NCBI GenBank assembly: GCA_016931415.1 | Contig: JAFGEW010000031.1 | Coordinates: forward strand, 1-64,000 | DNA from: Verrucomicrobiota bacterium | GTDB lineage: Bacteria; Auribacterota; JABMQX01; JAFGEW01 | Direction of reading: 5' to 3' | Length of the DNA stretch: 64,000 bases | In this document: positions 5,223 to 62,672 of the stretch, in pieces | How positions within the stretch are numbered: position 1 is the first letter of the stretch | Layout: the number at the start of each line of letters is the position of its first letter | Program-made: the position numbers and the translations under genes | Notes under the pieces: generated by a model | The model's input: the letters and a program-made list of their open reading frames with translations, nothing else | Told to the model about the DNA's origin: nothing | Database searches by the model: none

Positions 5223-8200
5223 TCAGCGTGCTCTCCGTCCGGCCTTGCTCTTCTTCACCGCAGAGATCGCAGAGCGCGCTGAATCGAGGTGCTCCCTGAG
5301 GAAGCGGGCGGTGTACGAGCGCTTGGCGTTCTTGACGAGGTCGGCAGGCGGGCCTTCGAACACGATGCGGCCGCCGTCCTCGCCCCCTTCGGGGCCGAGG
5401 TCAATGACGTGGTCGGCCTCGGCGATCACGTCGAGGTTGTGCTCGATGACGACGATTGTGTCGCCACGCTCGACGAAGCGACGGAGCACGGCGAGCAGGC
5501 TGGCGATGTCGGCTGGGTGCAGTCCGATCGTCGGCTCGTCGAGCACGTAGAGCGTGCGGCCCCGCCCCAGGCGGGGCTTGGCGAGCTCGTAGGCGAGCTT
5601 GATGCGCTGCGACTCGCCGCCGGAGAGCGTTGCGCTCGTCTGGCCGAGCGCGACGTAGCCGAGGCCGATCTCGCAGAGCAGCTCGATGGGGCGCCCGATG
5701 CGCGGCAGATCGCCGAAGAACACGGCGGCCTCCTCGGCCGTCATGGCGAGCACGTCAGCGATCGACTTCCCCTTGAACGTGATCGCAAGCGTCTCGGCGT
5801 TGAAGCGCCGGCCTCCGCACACGTCACACTCAACGTGAACGTTCGGCAGGAAGCTCATCTCGACGGTGAGCCGGCCCTGGCCGAGGCACTTCTCGCACCG
5901 GCCGCCCTTGACGTTGAACGAGAACCGCGAGGCCGTGTAGCCGTGCACGCGCGCCTCGGGCGTCATGGCGAACAGGCGCCGGATCTCGTCGAAGAAGCCG
6001 ACGTACGTCGCCGGCGTCGAGCGCGGCGTGCGGCCGATGGGCGTCTGATCGACTTCGAGGACTCGTGCGACCTGCTCGGCGCCTTCGATGCGCGTGCACA
6101 GGCCGTCGTCCACGCGCTTGCCCGCGTGCATGCGGCGGAGACCTTCGAAGAGCACGTCCTGGACGAGGCTCGACTTACCGGAACCCGACACGCCCGTGAC
6201 GCAGATCAGCGTACCGAGCGGGAAGCGCACGTCGAGCGTCTTGAGGTTGTTCGCCCGCGCGCCGACGACCCGGAGAGCCGCTCCATTGCCCGACGAGGCG
6301 GAGGGCCTCAGCGTGTGACGGAGCGCGTGGCGCAGGTAGCGAGCTGTTGCCGAGTGCTGCGCCCCCGTAACCGCACGCACCGGGCCCGATGCGACCACCG
6401 CGCCGCCGTGGCGTCCGGCGCCGGGGCCAAGGTCGATGACGTGGTCGGCGCTACGGATGACTCGGTCGTCGTGCTCGACGACGATCACCGTGTTGCCGCG
6501 GTCGCGCAGCCGTCGTAGCACCTTGATGAGCCGCCCGGTATCGCGCGGGTGGAGGCCAATCGTCGGCTCGTCGAGCACGTAGCAGACTCCACGCAGATTC
6601 GAGCCGGCCTGAGCGGCCAGCCGGACACGCTGCGCCTCGCCGCCCGAGAGCGTGCCGGCGCCGCGATCGAGACCAAGGTACGGCAGCCCGACCAGTGTGA
6701 GAAACTCGAGCCGCGTGCGTATTTCATCCATCAGCCCGCGCGCGATCGTGTCGCGATGACCCGCGAACCGCAGCTTCACGAGCGTCGCGTCCACCCGTTC
6801 GACGGGGAGCGCGGCAATCTCGGCGATCGAGCGTGTGCCAAGACGCACGGCGAGCGCGGTCGGGTTCAAGCGTCTGCCCGCGCAGACCTCGCACGTGTCC
6901 CATGCCTCGCCGCCCTTCTCCGCGTAGAGCACGACGCCCGCGCCCTCGCATTCGGCGCACCAGCCGTGGCGGCTGTTGTACGAGAACAGCCGCGGATCGA
7001 GTTCCTCGAAGCCGCGCCCGCACCTCGGGCACGTCCGCTTGGTGCTGTAGATCTGATCGCCGCGCCGGCCCGATGAGACGAGCAGCATGCCGTCGCCGTG
7101 CTCGAGCGCCTGCTCGACCAGCCGCTGCAGCGTCGAACGCTCATCCGTCGTGGCCTTCACCTGGCCGACGATCCCGTCGATGTTGTGCTCGCGATAGCGC
7201 GAGAGCCGCAACGTCTCGTGCGTCGGGAAGCGGTCGCCATCCACGCGCAGGAAGCCGATCCCGTGTTGTCGTGCCCAGCGCCCCACGTCGGTGTGGAAGC
7301 CTTTCCGCGCGCGGATAAGCGGCGCGAGGAGCGTCACCCGCCGCCCGCCGTACTCGTCCAGGATGCGGCGTACGATCGCCCGCGGCGATTGGGGCTCGAC
7401 GGCAACATCGCATTCCGGGCAGTACTGCGTGCCGAAGCGCGCGAAGAGCAGGCGCAGGTAGTGGTAGATCTCGGTGATCGTTGCGACCGTTGACTTCACG
7501 CCGCCGCGGCTGAGGCGCTGCTCGACAGCCACCGTCGGCGGGATGCCGTCGATGCGGTCGACGTCCGGGCGCGTCAACTGCTCGATATACTGGCGCACGT
7601 AGGCGGACAGGCAGTCGAGGTACCGGCGCTGGCCCTCGGCGAACAGCACGTCGTAGGCAAGCGTCGACTTGCCGGATCCGCTCACGCCCGTGATCGCCAC
7701 AATCCTGTCGCGCGGCACCGAGACGTCGAGATCGCGGAGGTTGTGCTCGCGCGCGCCCGTGATTTCGATTCCGCCGTTTCGTGACGGCCGGACCGCACGC
7801 CGCGAGCCTTCTTTGATCGGGAGGCGCTTCTCGCTGAGCACGGCCTTGAGGTAGCGGCCCGTGTGCGAGGCGTCGCACCGCGCGACATCCTCGGGCGCGC
7901 CGGCGACGACGATCTCACCGCCGTGCTCGCCGCCCTCCGGCCCCAGGTCGACGACCCAGTCGGCACACTTGATCACGTCAAGGTTGTGCTCGATGACGAC
8001 GACACTGTGGCCATGACGCACGAGGTTCTGGAGCGTCGTCATGAGCGTGGCCACGTCATCGGCGTGCAGGCCGGTGGTCGGCTCGTCGAAGAGGAACAGG
8101 GAGTGCTTCGATTGCTCGGTGTTGAGGCGCGCGGCGAGCTTCAGGCGCTGCGCCTCGCCGCCCGACAACGTCGTGATCGGCTGGCCAAGCCGCAGGTACC

Positions 8201-10586
8201 CGAGGCCGACGCCGACCAGCGGCTGCAAGGCCGTCGAGATGCGGGAGTCCTCGAAGAACGCGATCGCTTCGGTCACGGTCATGGCGAGGATATCGTTGAT
8301 GTTCTTGCTGTCGAGGCGGATGTCGAGCAGCTCGGGCGTGAAACGGCGGCCCTCACAGTCCGGGCAGGTCACGTGAACGTCGGAAAGGAACTGCATCTCG
8401 ATCGTCTGGAAGCCGGCGCCTTTGCACGTCTCGCACCGGCCGCCGGCAACGTTGAACGAGAACGCGCCAGGTCCAAAGCCGCGGCGTCGCGCCTCGGAGG
8501 TTGCAGCGAGCATCTCGCGGATGCGGCCGTAGGCGCCCATGTACGTCGCCGGGACGGCGCGCGGCGTCCGGCCAATGGGCGCTTGATCGACGAGAATGAC
8601 TTCGCCGACGTACTCATGGCCTTCGATGCGCGTGTGCGCGCCGGGCTCGTCGAGCGACCGGCCCTGCAGCCGCGCAAGCCCGCGATAGACGATGTCCTCG
8701 ACGAGCGTGCTCTTGCCGGATCCCGAGACACCCGTGATGCAGACGAAGCGCTCGAGCGGGATCGCGACATCGATGTTCTTGAGATTGTGCGCCCCCGCGC
8801 CACGGATCACGAGCTGCTTCGCGCCGTTGACGTTGCGGCGCACCGCCGGCAGCGCGACCTCCTTCGCCCCGCTCAAGTACTTGCCGGTCAGCGACCGCGT
8901 TGCCTTAGACAGCTTCTCGACGGGACCGTGGAACACGACGCGGCCGCCGCGCTCACCCGGACCGGGGCCGAGATCAACGACATTGTCCGCGGCACGGATC
9001 ACACCCGGGTCGTGCTCGACGACGACGACCGTGTTCCCCGCGTCGGTGATGCGGTGCAGCACGCCGACGAGGCGGTCCACGTCGCGCGCGTGCAGGCCGA
9101 TGCTCGGCTCGTCGAGCACGTAGAGCGTGTTCACCAGCCGCGAGCCAAGCGCCGTGGTCAACCCGACCCGCTCGACCTCGCCGCCCGAGAGCGTGCGCGA
9201 TTGCCGGTCGAGCGTCAGATAGCCGAGGCCGACATCGACGAGGTAGTCGAGCCGGGTGCCGATCTCGTTGACGAGCAGCGCCGTCGCCTCGTCGTGGGCA
9301 AAGCGCCGACGGAGCGCCGCGAACAGCTCGCGCGAGCGCTCGACGGGCATCTGCCACACGTCGGGCAGCGTCCGGCCGTCGAGACGGTAGAGGAGCGCCG
9401 TGTCGTTGAGGCGGCGGCCGCCGCACGTGCGGCACGTGCGGTACGTGCGGAATTTCGAGAGGTAGACACGCACGTGCATCTTGTAGGTCTTCGTCTCGAG
9501 CCAATCGAAGAGACCCTTGACGCCGTAGAAGTCCTCGGTGCCCTCCCAGATCATGCGCCGGTGCTCGTCGCTGAGCTGCTTCCACGGCACGTCCACGGGA
9601 ATGCCGCGACGGCGACAGAACTTGATCGTATCCCTGTAGCCCATCCGAAACGCCTTGCCTTCCCAGGGCTTGATGACGCCTTCCGTGACGCTCAGCGACG
9701 GGTCGGGAAAGACAAGCGCGGGATCGATCTCGATCGTGCGGCCAAAGCCGCGGCACGTCGGGCACGCGCCGATCGGGCTATTGAACGAGAAGAGATTCGG
9801 CACCGGATCCTCGTAGGCGATGTCGCACTCGGCGCAATGAAGCGCAGCGGAGAATCGGAGCACGTGCTCGTCGCCGAGCACCACGCTCAGCTTGTTGCGA
9901 CCGAAGTGCATGGCCGACTCGAGCGATTCGACAAGTCGCGCGCGGCGCGAGGGGCTGATGCGCACGCGGTCGTGGACGACGGTCGCGCGCCGGCCCTCCG
10001 TGAGCGCATCGGGGTGCTCGTCGAGCTTCACGACCTCGCCGCTGACAAGAACGCGCGTGAAGCCCTGCTTGATCAGGGCCTCGGCAACCGTCGTCCGACC
10101 GAGGCTCTTCGGCACGTCCACGTCGAACGTGATGAGCGTGTCGCGGCCGTTCGCCTCGTCAAGCAGGCGGATGACAATCGCCTCGGGCGTGTCGCGCGTG
10201 ACGGGCCGATTGCACGAGCGACAGTGGAGGACGGCCTCGCGCGCCCAAAGCAGCTTGAGGTAGTCGTTGATCTCCGTCATCGTGCCGACCGTCGAGCGCG
10301 ACGTACGCACGGGGTTCGTCTGGTCGATGGCGATGGCGGGCGGGATCGACTCGATCGCATCGACGTTCGGCTTGTCCATGCGGTCGAGGAACTGGCGGAT
10401 GTAGGGAGAGAACGTCTCGCTGTAACGCCGCTGCCCCTCAGCGTAGAGCGTCTCGAAGGCGAGGCTCGACTTGCCCGAGCCGCTCACGCCCGTCACGACG
10501 GTGAACCGGTCGACGGGCAGACGCAGGTCGAACCCCTTGAGGTTGTTCTGCCGTGCACCACGCACGACGATGGCCTTTGGCGGCAT
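5223..10586 (-). CDS. uvrA: UvrA, tandem-duplicated excinuclease ABC subunit A
   Basis: UvrA is the DNA-damage sensor ATPase of nucleotide excision repair. A normal UvrA is about 940 residues; this one is 1787 and contains two full copies in one frame, with the second starting near residue 940. Four P-loops of the form GVSGSGKS lie near residues 33, 619, 967 and 1467, and there are four LSGGE signatures (followed by [20 protein letters not shown] and SQRIKLA). Zinc-binding C-x2-C pairs occur in both halves (for example CETCKGAG and CEKCLGQG). All four ATPase sites look intact. Chlamydia UvrA has the same double form and nearly the same length. Start: ATG at 10586 ([16 protein letters not shown]). 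The frame is open for 107 more codons upstream, but they are Ser/Arg-rich and overlap smc, so they were rejected. It lies 82 bases after smc on the same strand. Confidence 0.95.
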
Positions 10587-10668
10587 CGTCAGGAATCCCC
10601 GAGTCAAGCTTCGGGCCGATTGTAGCACCCGCCCGGGAGTGTGAACACGAGGAAGGAGCGCGCCGGGT

Positions 10669-13600
10669 TCAGGATTCCGTTTCGGCCGGCGGCTCCACGG
10701 CGGCCGGCTCGGCGGGGGGCAGGGCGTCACGGAACTTGACCGAGACGACCTTGGAGATGCCGGAGCGCTCCATGGTGATGCCGTAGAGCACGTCGGCCAT
10801 GGCGATCGTGCGCTTGTTGTGCGTGATGATGATGAACTGCGAGCGGAGGAGGAACTCCTTGAGCGTGTCGTTGAAGCGCAAGATGTTCGGCTCGTCGAGC
10901 GCGGCATCCATTTCGTCGAGGATGCAGAACGGCGACGGTTTGACGCGGAAGATCGAGAAGAGCAGGCAGATGGCCGTCATCGCCTTCTCGCCGCCGCTCA
11001 TGAGCGTGATGCTCTGGAGCTTCTTGCCGGGGGGGCTGGCGACGATCTCGATGCCGCACTCGAGGATGTCGCTTTCATCGTCGAGAATGAGGTCAGCCTT
11101 GCCGCCGCCGAAGAGCGTGGTGAACATCTCGCGGAACGAGTCGCGGATCTTGTTGAACGTCTCGCGGAAGAGCTCGCGGCTCGTGCGGTTGATCTTGGCA
11201 ATGGCCTTGAGCAGCGACTCCTTCGCATTGATAAGGTCTTCCTGTTCCTTGACGAGGAAGGTGTGGCGTTCTTCGAGCCGCTCGTACTCCTCGATGGCGT
11301 AGATATTGACGGGGCCGAGCGATTCGATCTTGGCGCGCAACTCCTCGACGCGGGCGGCGACCTCCTCCCAGTTCGAATCGGGCGGGAAGCGCTCGGCCGC
11401 CGGATTGTCGTGGGTGAGCTTGTACTCGTTGCGCAGACGCTCGTCGATGCGCTCGACGGCGACACGCGCCTCGGTCAACTGCGCGTTGAGGCCGGACTCG
11501 GCCTCCTGCCGGTCGTGGAGTGTGCGACGCTTGTCCTTGAGCCCGGCTTCGAGCGTCCCGAGCCGGTTGCCGATCTCGGCGCGGCGCTCGTCGAGGGCCT
11601 CGATCGCGCGTTCGGCTTCGGCCTTCTGCTGCGTCACCTCCTCGATACGGCGGCGGGCCTCTTCCATCTCGAGCGCGAGCCGCTCGGAGTTGCCCTGGCC
11701 GGCCTCGATCTGCCGGCGGCACGCGACGATCTCCTCGTTGCGGCGCCGGATGTCGTCGGCGGTGCGCTCCTGGCGACCGTGCGCGGCCGTGGTGCGCTCC
11801 TTGAGCGACGAAACCTGCACTTTGAGCTCCGTGAGCCGCCGGTGCGCCTCGGCGGCCTCGGCCTGACGCTGGGCGATGGCCTCGTTGCGGCGGGCGGTCT
11901 CCTCGTCGGCGGCGCGTTTCTCCTGATCGAGCGCGGCGGCGGCGATGCGGACCTCCTCCCGGCGGGCCGAGAGACGAGTAGCATCATCCTCAAGCGCGAC
12001 GAGCCGTTCGGCGACCGCCGTGAGCTGTTGTTCGACGGCCTCGCGTCCGGCGGTCACACGGGCGAGCTCATGGGCCTGTTCGGCCAGTTGCTCGTCGACC
12101 GCCCGGATACGCCGGGCGATCTCCTCGCGCCGGATCTCGAGCGTGCCGGCCTCGCGGGCACGGTCCTGTTCCTGTCCATGCGTCGTGTCGTGCTCGGCCT
12201 GGAGACGGTGCGCTTTCTCCTCGAGCTGGGCGATGCGCGTATCGCGCGAGAGCAGGCCTTGCTCGGGCCGGCCCGCGCGGCCGCCGCTGATCACGCCGCG
12301 GCCGGAGAAGACCTCGCCGGCGCGCGTGACGAGCCGGAACGGGAAGCGCTTTTGCTCAGCGATGCGCAGCGCGGCATCGAAATCCTCGACAAGCACCGTG
12401 TCGCCCAGAAGCATGGCGACGAGCACGCGGTCGCGCTCGTCGCACCCGACGACTTCGCTCGCCGCCGCGATCAGGCCGGTGTTCCGTTCGAACAGCTCGT
12501 GGAGCAGCTCGGCGTTGACAGCCGGCGGCCTGAGCAGGTCGTACGGGAGGAACGTGGCGCGGCCGTTGCCGGTCTCCTTGAGATGGGCGATGGCGCGTTC
12601 GGCGTCGCGGCCCGTCGCCACGGCGATGTACTGGAGGCGGCCGCCAAGCGCTGCCTCGATGGCGATTTCGAACTCCTCGGGCACGCGCAGCAGGTCGGCC
12701 GCGGTGCCGTAGATGCCGGGCAGGGCGCCCATCTCGGCCGCGGCGGCGCGCAGAATGCTCTTCACGCCGTGGTGGTAGCCCTCATAGTTGGCGCGCATCT
12801 CGACAAGCAGGTCGTACTGCGACCGCACTTCGGCCAGCTCGCGCGAGAGCCGTTGGCGCCGGGCCATGTCCTGGTTGAGGAGCCCCGCGACATTCTGAAG
12901 CGATTCGCGCAGTGCGGCTTCCTCTTCGCGGCCGCGCCGGGCCTCGGCGGCAAGCTCGTCCTGATCGTGGGCGCGCCGCTGCTGGTCGGCGTCGAGCTGC
13001 TGCCGGCGCGCCTCGAGCTGCTCCTGCTCGGCGTGGAGGGTGGCACTCGCGGCGCCGGCCTCGTCGAGGCGGCGGTCAAGCGCCTCGATCTCGTTGGTGA
13101 TCTTGATCTCACGGTGCACAAGCTCGAGCGCACGCCGGGCGGCATCAGCCACGGCGGCCTCTTCCTGCCCGAGCGCAGCGGCCTCGGCAGCCACGCGCTC
13201 TTCCTGGGCGATCAGCGCCTGCTCGGCGTTGCGAAGCTCGGTCTCCTGCTGCTGGAGCAGGCACGTGCCCTCCTCGACCTGGCGACCGAGCTCGTCGATC
13301 TGCCGCTGGAGCGATTCGATCTGGCCGCGGGCGGCGACCTCGGCGTTGCGCCCGTCGGCGATGCGCTGTTCGCTCAGCGTGATCGTGTTGCGCTCGTGGT
13401 CAATGGCGCGCAGCAGCTCGAGCTTGCGCGTCTGGAGCGCTTCGAACTCACGCTCGTGCGCGGCGAGCTTGGCGCGCAGCTCGTCAATCTCGCCGTCGCG
13501 CGTCTCGATCTCGGTATAGAGCTCGCGCAGGCCGCTTCGGGAGCGGTCATGCTCGGTGGTGAGCCGCGTGAGCTCGGCGGCGAACACGTCGCGGTTGTGG

Positions 13601-41371: not shown

Positions 41372-43801
41372 TCACGGCGCATCGGGCGACAAGCGCCTCA
41401 GGGTCGAGCCGACTGTGCGCTCGAGCTCGACGCGGACCTTGCTTGTGCCACCGCCCTCGATCCGGACCGTGCCGCTGACTTTCGCGTTGTACCCATCGGC
41501 GTTAACGTAGAAGTCGTGCGGGCCAGGCAGTAAGTCCATGAGCGTGACGCGCCCCGCTTCGCCGCCCGAGGCCCCCGTGTCCGTCGTCGCGCCGTCTTTC
41601 ACGCTGGTCCGGCCATAGTCTGGCCTGTAGTAGAAAGTGCGGGCCAGACCTTTGAGGCCCGGCTGCGGCTGCCGCGCACTCCAAACCTCGAAGGAAGGGA
41701 CCGGGTCGCCCGTCTTCGCGTCGACGACCTCGACCTCGACCGCACCGAACTGCATTCTCTCGGCGACAATGGTCAAATCGCCGGCGCCCGGACTGACGTG
41801 CTCGACGGCGGCGCGGTGGAAGGTCTTGGCGGTGCGAAGGTCCACGCGGTCCTCGAGCACGAGCACGGTCACCGGTTCGCCGCTCGGAATGCGCCGCAGA
41901 GTGAATCTGCCGTCGGGGTTCGTCGGGGTGGCGTCGTACTCGCGCCATCGGCTGTTCACGGCCACCACCGAGCGGATCGAGAGCGGTTGGCCCTGCTCGT
42001 CGTAGACCGTGCCCCGGATGGTCTGGCCCCGCTCCAGAGCAATGTCGAGACGGCTGTCGGCGCTGCGGGCGACCGTCACATCCGTTTGCCTGAATGCATA
42101 GTCCGTGTGCTCAGCCGCCACGATATAGTCGCCCGCCGGCAGGGTGTCGAACTCGTATGTCCCGTCGGGGCCGGTCGTGACCGCGGCCCGCGGGTTCGGC
42201 AAGGACGGAGACGAGGCGAGAAACGCGGGGCCGAGCGCCTCGCCGTCGATAACGACGCTGACCTTCTCCAACGGCGTGCCGGCCTCGTCGGTCACGGTTC
42301 CAGCGACGCGCGCCCCCTTGTGCAGGGCGAGATCGAGCTCGTACACTGATTGGTCAGACTGGTCAAGCCAGCCGTACGTCAGCTCGCAGCCGGGATAAAG
42401 CGCCACCGCGCCGACCTTCTGCTGCGTTGAGTTAAAGTACAACTGGAAGCCGTACCGGCCCTCCGCGTCCGTGGCAGCCGGCTGGTAGGTGAAGAGGCTC
42501 ATGGACGGGGGGGGCGGCGTGTCGGCTTCATCCGCCGCCGATGGCCTTGGCTGAACACGCTGGATCAGCCAGACAGCGGCATTTTGGAGCGGCTCGCCAC
42601 TCGGCCCGGTCACCGTGCCGGTGATGATGCGCGAGCCCGTGGTGTTGACGAAGATCTTGACGTCTTTTGGCCCGCCGCCTTCCTCGAGGGTCTCCTGGTA
42701 ACGCGCCAGCGTGCAGTTCCAGTCAGTCCGGACCGCCTCAATCTGGAAGATGCCCGGCCGAAGGCCCGTGAATTCGAATGTGCCGTCCGCCGCATCCGCG
42801 GTGAGCTCAGGGCGTGACCCGTCGGGAAAGTAGTAATACTGGTACGGGTCGCGCTCGTAGAGGCGCACCCGCATGCCGGGCACGCGCGCCTGCGTCTGGC
42901 CGTCCAGAACCTCGCCCCGCAGCACCAACGAGCCGTGCTCAAGCTCGAAGAGCAGGTCGCCGACCTCCTGGCCCTGCATGACACGAACGTCGGCCAGCTC
43001 CTGGGGCGCGTATTCGGGCGCGGTCGGGTAGCAGATCACGCTCACGGCGATGCTGTCCGGCGGCTCGAAGGATACCGGCACCTTGAGCCGGAACGCCCCG
43101 TCGGCGTCGGTCTTCGTCTCGGTCTCGCCTGGCCGGCACAGGATGCGCGATCCCGCCAGCGGCTTGCCCGTATCCCGCGCGATCACGCGGCCCGAGACCA
43201 CGGCCGCTGTCTCCTCGAGCACGAGCTGCACCGCGTAGGCGCCTGGCACGACGTCCTGCCGCGCCATCCGGTACCCGTCCTTCTGGGCAAGCAGGGAGCA
43301 GGTCACGCTTTCGTCCAGGCCCTCGGACTTCTCCAGCGGCACGACGGCCTCGGCCGGTATGCCGCTGATCTCAAACCGGCCCCGGCTGTCGGTCTCGATA
43401 ACACGCGCGAAAAGGTCCTGGTGCTTCACGGTCGTTGGCTCGCCTTTCTCATCGTACGCCTTTGTGTGGCGAGCCATCAGCACGACAACCTGGGCCTTCT
43501 CCACCGGCTGCGAGTCCTGATCGACGACCCGCCCGGCTACTGTGCCGGCGGGCAGACGATGCGACGAGCCATCCGGCCCGACAGGCAGTCGTTCGCCGTC
43601 CTCTCCCGATCCGGGATCGCCACCGTTCGAGGTGGACGCGCCATCCGGCGTCTGTCTGCCGGGTTGGCGCGTTCGACCCGTCCGGCCGGCGGTTCCTGAC
43701 GTCTCGTCATGACTTGGCCGCGTCCGCCACGGGGCCACGGTCAGGAGCACGACGATGGCGAGCGCAGCGATCCCGCCGATGACCAGCAGGTTTCTCTTCA
43801 T
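41372..43801 (-). CDS. Membrane-anchored protein with about seven carboxypeptidase-regulatory-like (prealbumin-like) repeats
   Basis: The 809-residue product has one N-terminal membrane helix (NLLVIGGIAALAIVVLLTV, about residues 4-22), a low-complexity Gly/Thr/Asp linker, then repeated beta-sandwich modules. Each module starts with a G-x-V/I-x-G-x-V type strand: GTVAGRVVDQDSQPVEKAQV, AVVSGRVIARDTGKPLAGSR, LVLRGEVLDGQTQARVPGMR, RIITGTVTGPSGEPLQNAAV, ARVAGTVTDEAGTPLEKVSV and QTIRGTVYDEQGQPLSIRSV, with a more divergent seventh near residue 700. No enzyme motif was found. Such proteins are extracytoplasmic, acting in adhesion or as stalks. Between murJ and rnc on the same strand, but function is not obviously linked. 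Confidence 0.8.
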   Translation of the reverse strand: MKRNLLVIGGIAALAIVVLLTVAPWRTRPSHDETSGTAGRTGRTRQPGRQTPDGASTSNGGDPGSGEDGERLPVGPDGSSHRLPAGTVAGRVVDQDSQPVEKAQVVVLMARHTKAYDEKGEPTTVKHQDLFARVIETDSRGRFEISGIPAEAVVPLEKSEGLDESVTCSLLAQKDGYRMARQDVVPGAYAVQLVLEETAAVVSGRVIARDTGKPLAGSRILCRPGETETKTDADGAFRLKVPVSFEPPDSIAVSVICYPTAPEYAPQELADVRVMQGQEVGDLLFELEHGSLVLRGEVLDGQTQARVPGMRVRLYERDPYQYYYFPDGSRPELTADAADGTFEFTGLRPGIFQIEAVRTDWNCTLARYQETLEEGGGPKDVKIFVNTTGSRIITGTVTGPSGEPLQNAAVWLIQRVQPRPSAADEADTPPPPSMSLFTYQPAATDAEGRYGFQLYFNSTQQKVGAVALYPGCELTYGWLDQSDQSVYELDLALHKGARVAGTVTDEAGTPLEKVSVVIDGEALGPAFLASSPSLPNPRAAVTTGPDGTYEFDTLPAGDYIVAAEHTDYAFRQTDVTVARSADSRLDIALERGQTIRGTVYDEQGQPLSIRSVVAVNSRWREYDATPTNPDGRFTLRRIPSGEPVTVLVLEDRVDLRTAKTFHRAAVEHVSPGAGDLTIVAERMQFGAVEVEVVDAKTGDPVPSFEVWSARQPQPGLKGLARTFYYRPDYGRTSVKDGATTDTGASGGEAGRVTLMDLLPGPHDFYVNADGYNAKVSGTVRIEGGGTSKVRVELERTVGSTLRRLSPDAP

Positions 43802-48472: not shown

Positions 48473-48781
48473 ACCGATTTCCCCCGGAACGCGTCCATCT
48501 TGAGGGCTGTTGCTGCCATGGTACCCCAAGAGGCCGCAACGGTTCAACGACCCGGAGCACAGGCTGCACCTGAATACCGGGCGCGGGGAAACGTCTATGC
48601 GGGTAAGAACACGGCGATATCCTTCAGGGACCAGGGGTACTGTCCCTGACGATTGCGGGGGTTGACATCCCGCTCGCGCGCAGAGAATAATGGCATGGTC
48701 TCCAACAGGCCCGTGGCCGTTGCGCAGCAACGGCGCAGGCGACGCAAGCGTCGCACGCCTTGTGCAAGAGAAGGAGTGAGC
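48473..48781. other. Divergent intergenic region, TPR gene / FlgT-like gene
   Basis: About 309 bases with no gene supported. A promoter-like site for the rightward gene lies at 48662-48691. Nothing else was recognised. Confidence 0.5.
48662..48691 (+). promoter_or_regulatory. Candidate sigma-70-type promoter for the FlgT-like gene
   Basis: TTGACA (48662-48667), an 18-base spacer and AATAAT (48686-48691), about 90 bases before the ATG at 48782. Confidence 0.55.
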
Positions 48782-49918
48782 ATGATGAGTGCCCGAGTTT
48801 TCTGGACGTACCTGGCGCTGGTGGCCGCACTGGCGATCGTGCTACCGGCCGCCGCGCAGTTCGAGGAGCGCACCGTCGTTGCCGGCGGCGAGGGCGAAAG
48901 CAAGAATGAGGCGGTGAGCCGCGCGTTGCGGGCCGCCGTCGAACAGGGAGTCGGCGTGCTGATCAGCTCCGAGACGCTGGTGGAGAACAACACGCTTATC
49001 AGCGACCGGATCTACAGCGAGGTGTCCGGCTACGTCAGCACGCACGAGGTGCTCGAGGACAACGGCGGCGAGGGTGGCCTCTGGGAGGTCAAGGTCCGGG
49101 CGACCGTCTCGCTGGCCCGACTGCGCGAGGACCTTGCCGCGCTCAGGCTCCTCATCGAGGAAAAAGAGAACCCGCGGATCGCCATCCTGTGCCGTGAATA
49201 CGTCGACGGCGGCGAGCTGCCCGCTCCCGTGCTCCAGACGGCGCTTGAGCAGTTTTTCCTCGGCCAGGAGTTCGACGTGGTGGACGTCGCCCAGCTCGAG
49301 AAGATCAAGGAACGTGAGGCGACACTTCATTATGACGACCCGATCGAAGCGGCCGCGCTCGGGCGGCGCTTTGGGGCCGACGTGCTCGTCCTGGGTGAGG
49401 CCTCGGCCGAGCTCGGCGGGGTGCGCGAGGCCCACGGCCTGAAGGTCTACTCCTACACGGCGAACATCACGCTCAAGGCGGTCAAAACCGACACGGCCAA
49501 GGTCATTGCCGTCGTCCAAGGCAGCCATGCCGCCACGGGCGGCGGCGCGGTCACCGGTGAGGGTGACGTCGCTCGCGAGGCGCTCAAGGGCGCGGCCGGC
49601 CAGACAGTCGAGAAGCTTATGGACAAGATCGTCCAGGTCTGGCATCAGGAAGTCTACAACGTTGAGAACGTCGAAATCGTGCTCTTCAACGCGACCACCG
49701 AGGAACAGAAGGCGTTCATCGAAGGTCTCAAGAGCATCGACGGGGTCCAGAAAGTCACCGAGCGCATGGTCGAGGAGACCACGGCCGCGTATGACGTCCT
49801 CGTTGCCGGCGCGATTAAGAAGGACCTCGCCGACAAGGTGCTCGCCATCGACGAGCCCAAGCTGACGCTGCGCGGCAAGACGCCCAACCGGATCCGCGTG
49901 GTCGTCGAGGACGAATAG
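48782..49918 (+). CDS. Exported FlgT-like envelope protein (N- and middle-domain type)
   Basis: The 378-residue product has a signal peptide (MMSARVFWTYLALVAALAIVLPAAAQ). A FlgT_N-like domain follows (GEGESKNEAVSRALRAAVEQ, GVGVLISSETLVENNTLISD, YSEVSGYVSTHEVLED, LWEVKVRATVSL). Next comes a region like the FlgT middle or CsgG fold (FFLGQEFDVVDVAQLEKIK, ALGRRFGADVLVLGEAS) and a terminal repeat-like segment (EGLKSIDGVQKVTERM). In Vibrio, FlgT helps build the H ring of the flagellar base, but no flagellar gene is in this window. AAGGAG before ATG 48782 sets the start. It precedes the CsgG-like gene by 65 bases; the two look like a split FlgT. Confidence 0.82.
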   Translation: MMSARVFWTYLALVAALAIVLPAAAQFEERTVVAGGEGESKNEAVSRALRAAVEQGVGVLISSETLVENNTLISDRIYSEVSGYVSTHEVLEDNGGEGGLWEVKVRATVSLARLREDLAALRLLIEEKENPRIAILCREYVDGGELPAPVLQTALEQFFLGQEFDVVDVAQLEKIKEREATLHYDDPIEAAALGRRFGADVLVLGEASAELGGVREAHGLKVYSYTANITLKAVKTDTAKVIAVVQGSHAATGGGAVTGEGDVAREALKGAAGQTVEKLMDKIVQVWHQEVYNVENVEIVLFNATTEEQKAFIEGLKSIDGVQKVTERMVEETTAAYDVLVAGAIKKDLADKVLAIDEPKLTLRGKTPNRIRVVVEDE

Positions 49919-49983
49919 CTCATCCCGGCCCCTCGCTGGACCGAAGGAATACTGAACAACGCGCTCACGAGGAGATGACGACC

Positions 49984-51012
49984 ATGTGGCGGTTCTTCAA
50001 TACGCAGTGGACCACGGCCAGGGTGATGGCGGTGCTGGCGTTCGGCCTGCTCTGCGCGCCGGCGGCGGCGTTGACGCTTGGCGGCCAGCCCAGCAACAAC
50101 ACGGACGGTGAGCGGAAGGTGGGCACGATCAAGGGCCACGTCGAAACAGGTGACGAGTCCGGCCTCCCGCCGCTCAAAGGCCCGAAGAAGATCGTCGCCG
50201 TCGGCGGCTTCGAGAACAAGAGCGGGTTCGTCAGCGAGATCAGCCTCGGCAACAGCTTCTCGGACATGCTCGCCAGCGCGCTGGACAGGACCGAGCGTTT
50301 CATCGTCGTCAACCGCGAGAACCTCGACCAGGTTCTCGACGAGAAGACCCTCGCGCGTTCGGACGAGACGGCCAAGTCGGCCGTGGCCAAGACCGGCCAG
50401 CTGCTGAGCGCCCAGTACATCGTCGTCGGCGCGGTGACCGAATTCGAGCAGCATACCCAGGAGACGGGCGGTGGCCTGCGCATCGGGGAGGTCAGCGTCG
50501 GGGCCAAGATCACCAAGGCAAGTATCGCCGTCGTGGTGCGCATGATCAACACCCAGTCGGGCGAGGAGTTCACCCAGCGCGTCGAGGGCACCTCGCAGGC
50601 CACGGGTGTTGCCGCCGATTACGAGGGCAAGGACTGGGGGCTCGGCGGCCAGCACTTCCAGAAGAGCCCGCTCGGCAAGGCCGTCCAGAACGCGCTCGAC
50701 CAGGCCGTCGTGTTGCTCGGCACGCGCATCATTAACGAGCCGTGGACGGGCAAGGTCGTCATGGCCAAGGATGGTAAGATCTACATCAACGCCGGCGAAC
50801 GCAACGGCGTGAAAGTCGGCGACGTCTTTGTCGTCTACCACCGCGGCGAGGAGCTCCGCGACCCCGATACGGGCGAGCTCCTCGACTTCATCGAGGAGAA
50901 GCTCGGAACGATCAGTGTCATCACGGTCCAGGAGAAGGTCGCCATCTGCATCGAAGACGAGCTCAAGGAAGGAGCCGAGCTTGCGGCTGGCGACGTGCTC
51001 AAGACCGAGTAG
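49984..51012 (+). CDS. Exported CsgG-like protein with FlgT_C-like tail
   Basis: The 342-residue product has a signal peptide (RVMAVLAFGLLCAPAAA). A CsgG-like domain follows (KIVAVGGFENKSGFVSEISL, FSDMLASALDRTERFIVVNR, LLSAQYIVVGAVTEFEQHTQ, ASIAVVVRMINTQSGEEF), then a small C-terminal domain like FlgT_C (KDGKIYINAGERNGVKVGDV, FVVYHRGEELRDPDTGELLD). No lipobox is seen, so it is likely a soluble periplasmic or outer-membrane-peripheral protein rather than a CsgG lipoprotein pore. GAGGAG at 49968-49974 favours ATG 49984 over ATG 49975. Pairs with the preceding gene. Confidence 0.84.
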   Translation: MWRFFNTQWTTARVMAVLAFGLLCAPAAALTLGGQPSNNTDGERKVGTIKGHVETGDESGLPPLKGPKKIVAVGGFENKSGFVSEISLGNSFSDMLASALDRTERFIVVNRENLDQVLDEKTLARSDETAKSAVAKTGQLLSAQYIVVGAVTEFEQHTQETGGGLRIGEVSVGAKITKASIAVVVRMINTQSGEEFTQRVEGTSQATGVAADYEGKDWGLGGQHFQKSPLGKAVQNALDQAVVLLGTRIINEPWTGKVVMAKDGKIYINAGERNGVKVGDVFVVYHRGEELRDPDTGELLDFIEEKLGTISVITVQEKVAICIEDELKEGAELAAGDVLKTE

Positions 51013-51038
51013 TGCCGGGCGCACTCACGACAGATCTG

Positions 51039-51073
51039 CCGGGAGCTCCGGGAACAGGGCTCCCGGTTTCTCT
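51039..51073. terminator. Candidate terminator between convergent genes
   Basis: Arms CCGGGAGC (51039-51046) and GCTCCCGG (51059-51066), with a loop of 12, followed by TTTCTCT. It lies between the ends of the CsgG-like gene and the tyrA-aroA fusion. The T-tract is imperfect. Confidence 0.5.
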
Positions 51074-58151: not shown

Positions 58152-59045
58152 ATGATGTCACCAGTGTGGAAGGCAGCTTTTGCCGCCCCGCTCGTTCTTG
58201 TCGCAGCTCAGGGGAGCGACGAACCACGCGAGGAGGTCTCCCCGAACAAGTACACGTGGCTTGAGGACTGGAAACTATCCAACGCAACTGCGGAACGTGT
58301 TCCGGTGCCGGACGGCTATCGGCGGACCGAGGCGGCGGCCGGGACTTTTGCGGATTGGCTGCGGCATCTGCCGCTCAAGGAAGGGCGGCCACCCGTGCAG
58401 CTCTACGACGGCAGGGAGAAGGCCAACCAGGACGCGCACTTCGCCGTGATCGACATCGACGTCGGCGACCGCGACCTCCAGCAGTGCGCCGATGCCGTCA
58501 TGCGGCTGCGGGCCGAGTACCTGTACGCGAAGGGCGACCACGAGACGATCCATTTCAACTTCACGAGCGGGGACCGCGCCGACTTCGCGGAATGGGCGAA
58601 AGGCTACAGACCGACGGTGACGGAAGACTCGGTCGAGTGGCGGCAGACGGCCGGCGAAGATCGCTCCTACGCGTCCTTCCGCAAGTACTTAGTGATCGTC
58701 TTCGCGTACGCGGGGAGCGCCTCGTTGAGCCGGGAGCTGGAGCCCGTCGAGGACGTGGCCGACATGCAGATCGGCGACGTGTTCATCAAGGGTGGGTTCC
58801 CCGGGCACGCGGTCATCGTCGTCGACATGGCCGTTGACGCCGATTCCGCCAGAAAGGTCTTCCTGCTCGCGCAGAGCTACATGCCCGCCCAGGACATCCA
58901 TATCCTGCGAAACCCCGCCAACCCCGACTCCAACCCCTGGTATCCGCTCGACTTCGGCGACCAGCTTATAACCCCTGAGTGGACGTTCTCCGCTGGAGAG
59001 CTGAGAAGGTTTCGTGCTGAGGCAGAAGAGAACCGGTCAGAGTGA
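58152..59045 (+). CDS. Exported DUF4846 family protein
   Basis: The 297-residue product has a short signal peptide (VWKAAFAAPLVLVAAQG). The body matches DUF4846: FADWLRHLPLKEGRPPVQLY, VIDIDVGDRDLQQCADAVMR, LRAEYLYAKGDHETIHFNFT, DMQIGDVFIKGGFPGHAVIV and LLAQSYMPAQDIHILRNP. The function of the family is unknown; it is common in Bacteroidetes and some PVC bacteria. The start pairs ATG 58152/58155 are adjacent. It begins a rightward run of exported proteins with ARPP-1 and VIT-VWA, but the 147-base gap means the run may have separate transcripts. Confidence 0.82.
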   Translation: MMSPVWKAAFAAPLVLVAAQGSDEPREEVSPNKYTWLEDWKLSNATAERVPVPDGYRRTEAAAGTFADWLRHLPLKEGRPPVQLYDGREKANQDAHFAVIDIDVGDRDLQQCADAVMRLRAEYLYAKGDHETIHFNFTSGDRADFAEWAKGYRPTVTEDSVEWRQTAGEDRSYASFRKYLVIVFAYAGSASLSRELEPVEDVADMQIGDVFIKGGFPGHAVIVVDMAVDADSARKVFLLAQSYMPAQDIHILRNPANPDSNPWYPLDFGDQLITPEWTFSAGELRRFRAEAEENRSE

Positions 59046-60335: not shown

Positions 60336-62672
60336 ATGAGAAGCGTACGGATGGCTGGGTTTATCGTCGCATGCGTCCTTGCGGCCGGGACGGCGCTGGC
60401 CACGGGGATGCTCGTGCCGACGGATGAGAAGCTGCCGCCGCTGGCGGTCAAGTACCTGCGCGTCGGCACGGTGATCAAGGACGGCGTAGCGACCACGAAG
60501 GTTGAGCAGTCGTTCCTCAACAGCACGTCGCGCCAGCTCGAGGCCGACTTTGTTTTCCCGCTGCCGGCCGATGCGGCGATCAAGGAGCTGGCGATGTATA
60601 TCGACGGCAAGCGGACGCAGGCCGAGCTGCTCGACGCGCCGGCCGCACGCCGTATCTACGAGGACATCGTGCGCCGCTCGCGCGACCCCGCGCTGCTCGA
60701 AGCGATGGGCGGCACGCTCTACCGGCTGCGCATCTTCCCCGTGCCGGCCAACGGCGAGCAGCGCATCGATCTCGAGTATTCACAGGCGCTCAGCTACGAC
60801 GGCGGCCTGTTCAGGTACGTCTACCCGGTCAAGATCGGTGATCGGTTCTCGACGACGACTGAAGACTTCGCGCTCAGCGCCATGATCGAGGCATCGCGGC
60901 CCATCACGTCGGTCTACTCGCCAAGCCACACGGTGAGCATCGACCGCGAGGGCGAGCGCAAAGCGACCGTCGGCTTTGAGCAAGACCGCGCGCCGCTCAA
61001 CAAGGACTTCGTGCTCTACTACGCCGTCGGCGACAAGGCGTTCGGCCTCAACATGCTCGCCCATCGGCCCAGCAGTGAAGGTGGCTCGTTCATGCTGCTC
61101 ATCTCGCCGCAGCGCGACGTAGACCGGAACAAGATCGTTAGAAAAGACGTGGTCTTCGTCCTCGACACGTCGGGTAGCATGTCGGGCGACAAGATCGAGC
61201 AGGCGCGGCGCGCGCTTACCTTCTGCGTCAACAGCCTCAACGAGGGCGACCGGTTTAACATCATCCAGTTCGCTACGACGGTCAACGCCTACCGCAACGC
61301 GCTTGTCGAGGTGTCAGCCGACGCGATCAAGGCGGCGCGCGACTACATCGCCGGGCTCGAGGCGACCGGCGGCACCGACATCAACAGCGCGCTTGCCAAG
61401 GCCCTTGAGATGAAACCGGCCGAGACGACGCGTCCGTTCATGGTCGTCTTCCTCACCGACGGCAAGCCGACGATCGGCGAGACCGACAACGCGACGATCC
61501 TCGAGAACGTCGGCGCGAAGAACTCGACCGCCGTGCGGCTCTTCGTCTTCGGCGTCGGCTACGACGTGAACACGCACCTGCTCGACAGGCTCGCGCAGGA
61601 CAACGGCGGCGTGAGCGAGTACGTCGACCCGGCCGAAGACATCGAGGTGAAGGTCTCGGGGTTCTATGCCAAGGCATCGAACCCCGTACTCACAAACGTC
61701 GCATTGGTGTTCGGCGATGGGGTGCGCGTTTATGATCTATGCCCGAGCACAATGCCCGACCTGTTCGAGGGCGTGCCGCTGCAGGTCTTCGGCCGCTACG
61801 GCGGCACGGGCGACGTGGCGATCACGCTCACGGGCGAGATCAACGGCGAGAAGGTCTCGCACACCTACGAGACGACATTCCCCGCCGAGGAAGAGGAGAA
61901 CGAGTTCGTCGCGCGGCTGTGGGCAACGCGGCGCGTCGCCGCGTTACTCGACGAGATCCGCCTCCACGGCGAGAACGAGGAGCTCGTGGATTCGATCAAG
62001 AAGCTCGCGCGCGGCTACGGCATCGTCACGCCGTACACGTCGTACCTCATTGTCGAGGACAGCGAGCTCGAACGCGCCGGCATCCGGAGAAGCTACGCCG
62101 ATGGGAGTGTCCGTAGGGAGACAAACCGCGTGTGGGGGAGTCGCACACGCGAGGAGGCGCCGCGGGGCGACCTCGGCATGAGCGACGCGGCGGACGAAGC
62201 GCCCACCTTCGACTACGACGAGAAGGCCGGCGCGGGCGGCCCTGCGGACGGCCACAGTATGGAGACGGTTGTCGACGCCGAGATCGATGCGACGGTCCGT
62301 GACGTGGGCGCTCACGCCACGGGCAAGGAGGCCGTTGACATCTCGCGCGCACTCGACACGTGGCGGAAGGCCGACGTGGACGGCGCCGGCTGGGCCGTGC
62401 GCAACATCGAGCAGCGCAATTTCTACAACGTCGACGGGACGTGGATCGACGGCGGGTTACGCGGCGGGCTGCCGTCGCTCAAGATCAAGTTCGGTTCCGA
62501 CGCCTACTTCGCGCTGCTCACGTGGCGCCCTGGACTCAAGCCGTTCCTGGCGCTGGGCGACCGCCTTGTTCTCGTCGTCGAGGACCACGTCCTCCTGATC
62601 GGGAACGAGGGCGAGGAGACGCTGACCAAGGAGGCGTTTGAGGCTTTCCTGACTTCCACCGATTCTGACTGA
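60336..62672 (+). CDS. Exported VIT-VWA domain protein
   Basis: The 778-residue product has a signal peptide (MAGFIVACVLAAGTALA). A VIT domain covers residues about 30-165 (LPPLAVKYLRVGTVIKDGVA, KVEQSFLNSTSRQLEADFVF, RRIYEDIVRRSRDPALLEAM). A von Willebrand A domain covers residues about 265-440 with an intact MIDAS site (VVFVLDTSGSMSGDKIEQAR near 276, then ATGGTDINSAL and VFLTDGKPTIGETD). A C-terminal helical region with a beta tail ends it. These proteins resemble inter-alpha-trypsin inhibitor heavy chains and probably bind ligands in a metal-dependent way outside the cytoplasm. AAGGAGA and the three-base gap couple it to the ARPP-1 gene. A strong terminator follows. Confidence 0.9.
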   Translation: MRSVRMAGFIVACVLAAGTALATGMLVPTDEKLPPLAVKYLRVGTVIKDGVATTKVEQSFLNSTSRQLEADFVFPLPADAAIKELAMYIDGKRTQAELLDAPAARRIYEDIVRRSRDPALLEAMGGTLYRLRIFPVPANGEQRIDLEYSQALSYDGGLFRYVYPVKIGDRFSTTTEDFALSAMIEASRPITSVYSPSHTVSIDREGERKATVGFEQDRAPLNKDFVLYYAVGDKAFGLNMLAHRPSSEGGSFMLLISPQRDVDRNKIVRKDVVFVLDTSGSMSGDKIEQARRALTFCVNSLNEGDRFNIIQFATTVNAYRNALVEVSADAIKAARDYIAGLEATGGTDINSALAKALEMKPAETTRPFMVVFLTDGKPTIGETDNATILENVGAKNSTAVRLFVFGVGYDVNTHLLDRLAQDNGGVSEYVDPAEDIEVKVSGFYAKASNPVLTNVALVFGDGVRVYDLCPSTMPDLFEGVPLQVFGRYGGTGDVAITLTGEINGEKVSHTYETTFPAEEEENEFVARLWATRRVAALLDEIRLHGENEELVDSIKKLARGYGIVTPYTSYLIVEDSELERAGIRRSYADGSVRRETNRVWGSRTREEAPRGDLGMSDAADEAPTFDYDEKAGAGGPADGHSMETVVDAEIDATVRDVGAHATGKEAVDISRALDTWRKADVDGAGWAVRNIEQRNFYNVDGTWIDGGLRGGLPSLKIKFGSDAYFALLTWRPGLKPFLALGDRLVLVVEDHVLLIGNEGEETLTKEAFEAFLTSTDSD

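Follow-up and report, generated by a model that had tools for sequence, protein, structure and literature searches.

Two adjacent genes in a 64-kb stretch of DNA (hereafter the window) encode proteins, here called P1 and P2, which between them carry the domain set of FlgT, the H-ring protein of Vibrio, in the same order: N–M in P1 and M–C in P2 (PF16548, PF16539 and PF16538; PDB 3w1e and 8z5n). We propose, at a probability of about one half, that a FlgT-type ring protein is here shared out between two exported chains and, together with LPP20 proteins, forms a flagellum-independent scaffold with a sensory output. The window is contig C31 of the assembly G000 (4.06 Mb in 134 contigs, 98.9% complete, 4.48% contaminated), and the pair was followed through 44 genomes (G000–G043) of its phylum, inferred to be Candidatus Auribacterota of the Planctomycetota–Verrucomicrobiota–Chlamydiota (PVC) group; a strong P1 is defined throughout as a match at E 1e-60 or better. 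In relatives the pair stands in a module with LPP20-repeat proteins, a FecR-LPP20 fusion and a CHASE2 cyclase, which extends what a first-pass annotation of the window had noticed, namely a FlgT/CsgG-like pair. No description of this module was found in the open-licence PubMed Central (PMC) literature that was searched.

A FlgT-like domain set on two chains

P2 (49975..51012, forward strand) is an open reading frame (ORF) of 345 aa with FlgT-M/C-like domains. Residues 66–258 (50170..50748, forward) match the Pfam CsgG domain at 111.4 bits and almost completely (model positions 4–207 of 210), and residues 268–341 (50776..50997, forward) match FlgT_C at 31.8 bits, over the cut-off of 27; FlgT_M reaches 22.6 bits, below its cut-off of 31.2. 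The same domains recur in an alignment of 28 P2 proteins, window included, when matches up to E 1 are counted: CsgG in all 28, FlgT_C in 26 and FlgT_M in 23. The P2 model (mean predicted local distance difference test score, pLDDT, 78) has Vibrio FlgT as its first Foldseek match (E 1.1e-18). Set against the FlgT of the Vibrio LPHT ring (8z5n_0), it aligns over 264 residues, spanning P2 52–345, with Z 21.8 and a root-mean-square deviation (rmsd) of 3.6; FlgT 3w1e follows at Z 18.1, the entry after that at 14.8, and CsgG at 12.3. In several relatives P2 is tandemly duplicated (L083 10656-13625, L063 5-1971, L065 10302-12226). Where P2 occurs without P1 (e.g. family f10), the neighbouring genes, read by eye, look like housekeeping genes and gave no functional lead.

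P1 (48782..49918, forward strand; 378 aa, likewise an open ORF) is LipL46-like and FlgT-N/M-like. Its N-terminal domain, at residues 29–127 (48866..49162, forward), is of the FlgT_N/FlgP-like, SHS2 type. FlgT_N matches 16 of 20 proteins in the P1 alignment A1 (E up to 1, best 5.9e-12; the window's protein is not one of the 16), which comprises 17 of 19 phylum proteins, G016 and G023 being left out, and three distant ones. In a search of solved structures the P1 profile aligned this domain with 9hmf_C (E 2.4e-7), a 171-aa lipoprotein that we take to be FlgP of Campylobacter jejuni, with 9HMF as the scaffold of PMC12222027. The alignment is ungapped at residues 58–84 (48953..49033, forward), which fall on the hairpin stretch of ring-forming FlgP, and this stretch is 27 residues long in all 20 rows, among which there is no insert-less relative to serve as a control. 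The P1 sequence alone had a single match among solved structures, an unconvincing one to beta-lactoglobulin (E 0.1) that was set aside.

The middle domain of P1, at residues 130–292 (49169..49657, forward), is CsgG/TolB-N/FlgT-M-like, and CsgG (26.8 bits, residues 163–285) is the only Pfam domain that passes its cut-off in the window's P1. Here too the model (mean pLDDT 79) finds Vibrio FlgT first in Foldseek (E 3.3e-10), and a second aligner gives FlgT Z 11.2, with 227 residues aligned across 32–294. TolB, PelC and CsgG tie with FlgT on Z (about 11), but each covers only some 117–148 residues. Comparison with 3w1e gives Z 10.6 and an rmsd of 19.6; because of that large deviation, the domains of the P1 model appear to be oriented differently from those of 3w1e. 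The C-terminal domain, residues 294–375 (49661..49906, forward), is modelled as an alpha/beta fold of the order strand-helix-strand-strand-helix-strand-strand; it is barely touched by the structure matches of P1 and had gone unnoticed in the first-pass annotation.

That annotation had placed an N-type domain in the first protein and a C-type domain in the second, with CsgG/FlgT-M folds in both, and had called for structure prediction of each. The domain counts bear out the first point and the paired CsgG matches and Foldseek results the second, and the predicted folds are indeed related to FlgT and CsgG, so that the observation of a FlgT/CsgG-like pair is confirmed. The resemblance to FlgT nevertheless has limits: FlgT, which assembles into the H-ring surrounding the L-ring, is a single chain, whereas here two separate ORFs share the domains, the middle domain is doubled and P1 has an additional C-terminal domain. 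P1 and P2 may function in the manner of the H-ring or the basal disk, yet they are not FlgT as defined, that is, a single flagellar chain.

A second family with a claim on P1 is LipL46, a Leptospira lipoprotein (NF033164), which matches residues 31–343 (model positions 48–370 of 413) and, with E no higher than 0.01, every one of the 20 aligned P1 rows. The window's P1 falls far short of the equivalog cut-off, however (21.7 versus 400 bits), and, unlike a lipoprotein such as LipL46, shows no lipobox; our own pattern scan, which is not a dedicated predictor, found none in the window's P2 either. Both proteins begin, by eye, with a signal-peptide-like segment, and both are probably exported.

LPP20, FecR and CHASE2 partners

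In relatives of the window's organism, a protein with three LPP20 repeats is encoded ahead of P1, often together with a short LPP20-like one. The triple-LPP20 protein is strong in 16 of the 19 phylum genomes with a strong P1 and in none of the 25 others (Fisher 2e-9, uncorrected for kinship); in 15 of the 16 it is the next upstream module gene of P1, and in G035 it lies on another contig. Weaker matches of its profile in G000, G007, G015 and G033 (E 1e-10 to 1e-20) are to other LPP20 genes and stand outside the 16. The profile, built from 12 proteins, matches Vibrio FlgP (8z5n_2, E 1.3e-8) and 9hmf_C (E 2.2e-12), and the protein of G003 scores 59.8 bits with LPP20. The hairpin stretch is again constant, at 30 residues in 36 of 36 repeats, no insert-less relative being aligned as a control. 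The FlgP/LPP20 family (C. jejuni basal disk, Vibrio FlgP, Helicobacter pylori Lpp20 HP1456) thus has matches in the N-domain of P1 as well as in the LPP20-repeat partners. The partners differ from FlgP, a short flagellar-motor lipoprotein, in having three repeats per chain and a strict lipobox pattern in none of the 12. Upstream of the triple-LPP20 gene, a divergent sigma-54 activator gene stands in nine of 16 loci (e.g. L063 5692-7242), of GAF type in the one case annotated; it is a possible dedicated regulator of the LPP20-P1-P2 genes.

The fusion of FecR with LPP20 is present in all but four (G003, G007, G015 and G035) of the 19 P1 genomes, hence in 15, and additionally in G033, where P2 is matched but P1 is not. 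It was found through the triple-LPP20 profile and confirmed with a profile of its own in fetched loci only, so that its absence elsewhere is not shown. Next to the fusion gene, 11 of the 16 loci carry a divergent gene for a CHASE2 cyclase, at a distance of about 2.4 kb in G030; of the other five loci, two (G027, G033) are close to a contig end. The cyclase was looked for only in fetched loci and without a whole-genome profile search, so here too absence elsewhere is not shown. On the P1 contig the fusion gene is convergent to P2 in G004, G012, G020, G026 and G030, and in G011 and G019 its neighbour is a P2 copy at the end of a contig; a DUF3307 gene separates it from P2. Four Omnitrophota loci (L114, L116, L117, L151) show the same convergence with P2; L117 is from Ca. 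Tantalella remota, which we take to belong to Omnitrophota. G000 itself carries the CHASE2 adenylate/guanylate cyclase and, divergent from it, a FecR protein with two LPP20-like repeats at positions 2591-6536 of contig C131, an 8.2-kb contig whose composition matches that of the window (r 0.987). The FecR match there is just below the Pfam cut-off (20.9 versus 24 bits) and the FecR-LPP20 family profile gives 360 bits. The Pfam LPP20 model finds nothing in G000 at E 0.001; our own repeat profile finds two repeats in one gene, on C131.

These associations suggest the following arrangement. P1, P2 and the FlgP-like LPP20-repeat proteins would assemble into an oligomeric collar or scaffold at the periplasmic face of the outer membrane. 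In P1 and the LPP20 proteins, the contacts between subunits would be made by the FlgP-type hairpin, and P2 would add a CsgG/FlgT middle ring and a FlgT-C barrel. Such a scaffold could function without a flagellum. The FecR-LPP20 protein would sense its state and relay it to the CHASE2 cyclase, whose gene stands back to back with that of FecR-LPP20, and the cyclase would then make a cyclic nucleotide. According to the available text of one article, ring formation in the FlgP family goes together with an insert located after the SHS2 helix and before the second strand (Drobnic et al. 2025, PMC12222027). Given the constant length of the stretch aligned with the FlgP hairpin and the FlgT fold, P1 and its partners probably assemble as outer-membrane rings or disks. 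A signalling read-out is suggested by the pairing of FecR-LPP20 with CHASE2.

Two known gene sets resemble parts of this module. The H. pylori HP1454–HP1456 operon encodes an LPP20 protein and a three-domain secreted protein whose first domain is alike, and both interact with FlgP; that species is flagellated, and the excerpts of the source mention no CHASE2 or FecR partner (PMC11756786). The BiofilmReg operon of Burkholderia (LysM-FecR, CHASE2 histidine kinase, DUF4136), which is linked to biofilms, has a similar pairing of a predicted non-cytoplasmic FecR protein with a CHASE2 sensor, which is a histidine kinase there and a cyclase here.

Distribution with and without flagellar markers

The three flagellar markers that were sought, FlhA, FlgI and FlgH, have no match in the window, in agreement with the earlier remark that no flagellar gene lies near the pair. 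A search of the genome, as that annotation had proposed, finds one match to each in G000, all on contig C16, a set of genes that the annotation had missed. Because the composition of C16 (58 kb compared) matches that of the window (tetranucleotide r 0.988), this contig is no obvious contaminant. The sole P1 match and the sole P2 match of G000 both lie in the window and none on C16, and the region C16:45000-102894 has no match with the P1, P2 or LPP20 profiles.

Across the phylum's 44 genomes, strong P1 is found in 19, FlhA in seven, and FlgI and FlgH in six each. Thirteen of the 19 (G003, G004, G008, G011, G012, G016, G019, G020, G023, G026, G027, G030, which is Ca. Tritonobacter lacicola, and G035) are without all three markers, and nine of these 13 are at least 90% complete. 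Every one of the 13 has P2 next to P1 and in the same orientation, and the P1 frame is open in 12, G023 having a TAG. Among the six flagellated P1 genomes, P2 adjoins P1 in five, and in the sixth (G014) the contig ends. In a P1 tree of 24 rows (18 of the 19 phylum proteins, G023 being omitted owing to its TAG, and six others), the flagellated label needs two changes, with flagellated G006, G014 and G021 (Ca. Auribacter fodinae) nested among FlhA-less rows. Thus the first-pass description of the two as a non-flagellar pair holds for relatives, in which the pair is conserved without the markers, and not for G000, which has flagellar genes of its own; its interpretation as a whole is partly supported.

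P1-like genes also occur more widely. Weaker pieces in G018 (best E 3.6e-12) are not among the 19. Outside the phylum, 11 of 54 genomes have P1 matches, with E values between 1.2e-4 and 4.2e-32, likewise not counted in the 19. Matches in Omnitrophota are partial in eight of 11 genomes, covering at most 247 profile positions and never the N-domain, and these are not counted as full P1. Full-length P1 was found in three of 145 genomes of the Omnitrophota phylum to which the L116 genome belongs, and FlhA in two of the genomes from which the 17 named loci come. In G077, an unrelated genome, FlgH/FlgI lie about 17 kb from a P1-like gene on one contig of 30 kb. Membership of a flagellar core cluster was rejected there on the annotated genes in between (nucleotidyltransferase, methyltransferase, glycosyltransferase, ABC, MlaD, FapA and DUF1015), not all genes in that interval being annotated.

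Several observations weigh against a split FlgT-type protein in a flagellum-independent sensory scaffold. The window's P1 has no FlgT_N match even at E 1 with Pfam, is divergent and sits on a long branch of the P1 tree, and its model is of low confidence at residues 59–81, the hairpin being its least confident part. The constant hairpin length is suggestive only with respect to rings, given that no insert-less relative was aligned. In BiofilmReg, a FecR protein accompanies a CHASE2 kinase with no FlgT or LPP20 parts described in the portion of the source available (PMC5192318). For the window's organism the module is partly inferred: the profile search found no triple-LPP20 protein in G000, and its FecR-LPP20 gene is on C131 rather than on the window contig. 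The three strong-P1 genomes without a triple-LPP20 protein (G000, G007, G015) are all flagellated, and the single matches to FlhA, FlgI and FlgH on C16 speak against a non-flagellar label for G000, so that this label rests on its relatives. Because P1 is enriched in FlhA genomes (six of seven, versus 13 of 37 others; Fisher p 0.03, uncorrected for kinship), complete independence from the flagellum is weakened and a part-time flagellar role for P1 and P2 is conceivable. Finally, the well-supported branches of the P1 tree force only one change of flagellation, which a single split could account for.

Alternative roles and the surrounding locus

Much of this evidence bears on a reading that we consider somewhat unlikely, in which P1 and P2 are parts of an ancestral flagellum's H-ring, decorating the outer-membrane end of the motor in the window's organism and persisting as relics, or re-used, in non-flagellated relatives. 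FlgT and FlgP are treated as flagellar motor parts in the texts available to us (PMC6375700; PMC12222027), and the enrichment of P1 in FlhA genomes, the marker genes of G000 and the single flagellation change that the tree firmly requires all agree with such a history. A decaying relic, however, would not be expected to remain adjacent to P2 in 13 marker-less genomes with the frame open in 12; the flagellar contig C16 of G000 has no match to any of these parts, P1 and P2 being matched in the window alone and LPP20 repeats on C131 alone; and the triple-LPP20 partner shows no link to FlhA (present in three of seven flagellated genomes and 13 of 37 others, p 0.69).

The other readings start from single domains. 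That P2 is an outer-membrane channel of the CsgG/HfaB kind, as in curli and holdfast secretion, bearing a FlgT_C domain and with P1 as its periplasmic partner, seems improbable to us, even though CsgG is its strongest Pfam match, covers the full domain and recurs throughout the family. At the presumed positions of the two membrane hairpins that form the nonameric pore of CsgG, the first stretch aligns with P2 ungapped and the second with small gaps. On the other side, the whole-chain fold of P2 is closer to FlgT than to CsgG (Z 21.8 versus 12.3), P2 adds FlgT_C, and the lipobox pattern to be expected of an acylated lipoprotein such as CsgG is missing from the window's P2 and present in four of 28 family members. 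CsgF was found in one of 98 genomes and not in G000, which weakens curli-type secretion and a curli role. The sole CsgF (G015, C120:7856-8227) adjoins a CsgG-like match (C120:8482-8823); since P1 and P2 lie on a different contig, curli and the pair are separate in that genome. A scaffold for a secretin of a type IV pilus or type II secretion system, which we regard as quite improbable, would draw on the likeness of the P2 C-domain to the secretin-associated TsaP (3jc8_Ta, E 1.1e-7; 6ve2_O, E 6.6e-5). P2 has no LysM match at E 1 with Pfam, unlike TsaP, there is no pilus gene among the annotated neighbours (not all neighbours being annotated), and secretins are so widespread (92 of 98 genomes, whether or not P1 is present) that their co-occurrence is uninformative. 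Very improbable, lastly, is a regulator of peptidoglycan synthase of the LpoB kind: LpoB scores 28.7 bits in P2, over its cut-off, and its C-domain reaches Z 9.0 with the P1 model, but the NCBIfam LpoB equivalog gives 23.4 bits against a cut-off of 110.55, and a match to the middle part only leaves FlgT_N, FlgT_C and the LPP20 partners unexplained.

If the split FlgT-type protein does serve a flagellum-independent scaffold, it bears on the open question of how flagellar motors acquired their outer rings. FlgP, as far as the cited text goes, comes from a broad family (PMC12222027). FlgT-like and FlgP-like genes that are kept without flagellar markers and tied to a second-messenger enzyme would offer a living candidate for non-flagellar ring use, which thereby becomes testable in named organisms. 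More tentatively, and against our own expectation, the module may be a free-standing envelope machine, a FlgT/FlgP-like ring or disk at the outer membrane of non-flagellated bacteria, coupled through FecR-LPP20 to the inner-membrane CHASE2 cyclase, from which the flagellar H-ring and basal disk were later recruited; the disk would then be a sensor or collar in its own right.

Within the window, P1 and P2 are on the same strand with a gap of 56 bases, and look like a two-gene unit because they are flanked by a promoter-like site before P1 and a terminator-like hairpin after P2. The former (48662..48691, forward; TTGACA-18-AATAAT, 11 of 12 matches) is sigma-70-like, with one such site found versus 0.1 expected in shuffles; the latter (51038..51067, forward) has an 11-pair stem, and is one of four terminator-like sites in the region on both strands versus 2.0 expected. 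A start at the TTG at 48653 would lengthen the P1 ORF, but the extension would then take in the promoter-like site. Upstream of P1 lies a divergent gene for a tetratricopeptide-repeat protein and downstream of P2 a convergent ORF that, by eye, is a prephenate dehydrogenase fused to 5-enolpyruvylshikimate-3-phosphate synthase. An Rfam scan of the window gave nothing at gathering thresholds. Elsewhere in the window are a 1894-aa UvrA-like ORF (5226-10907, reverse strand) with two UvrA-interaction stretches and several ABC segments, which looks like a double-length UvrA; an 809-aa protein with repeated carboxypeptidase-regulatory-like domains (41375-43801, reverse); and a 778-aa protein with VIT and von Willebrand A domains (60336-62669, forward), near a DUF4846 gene at 58152-59042.

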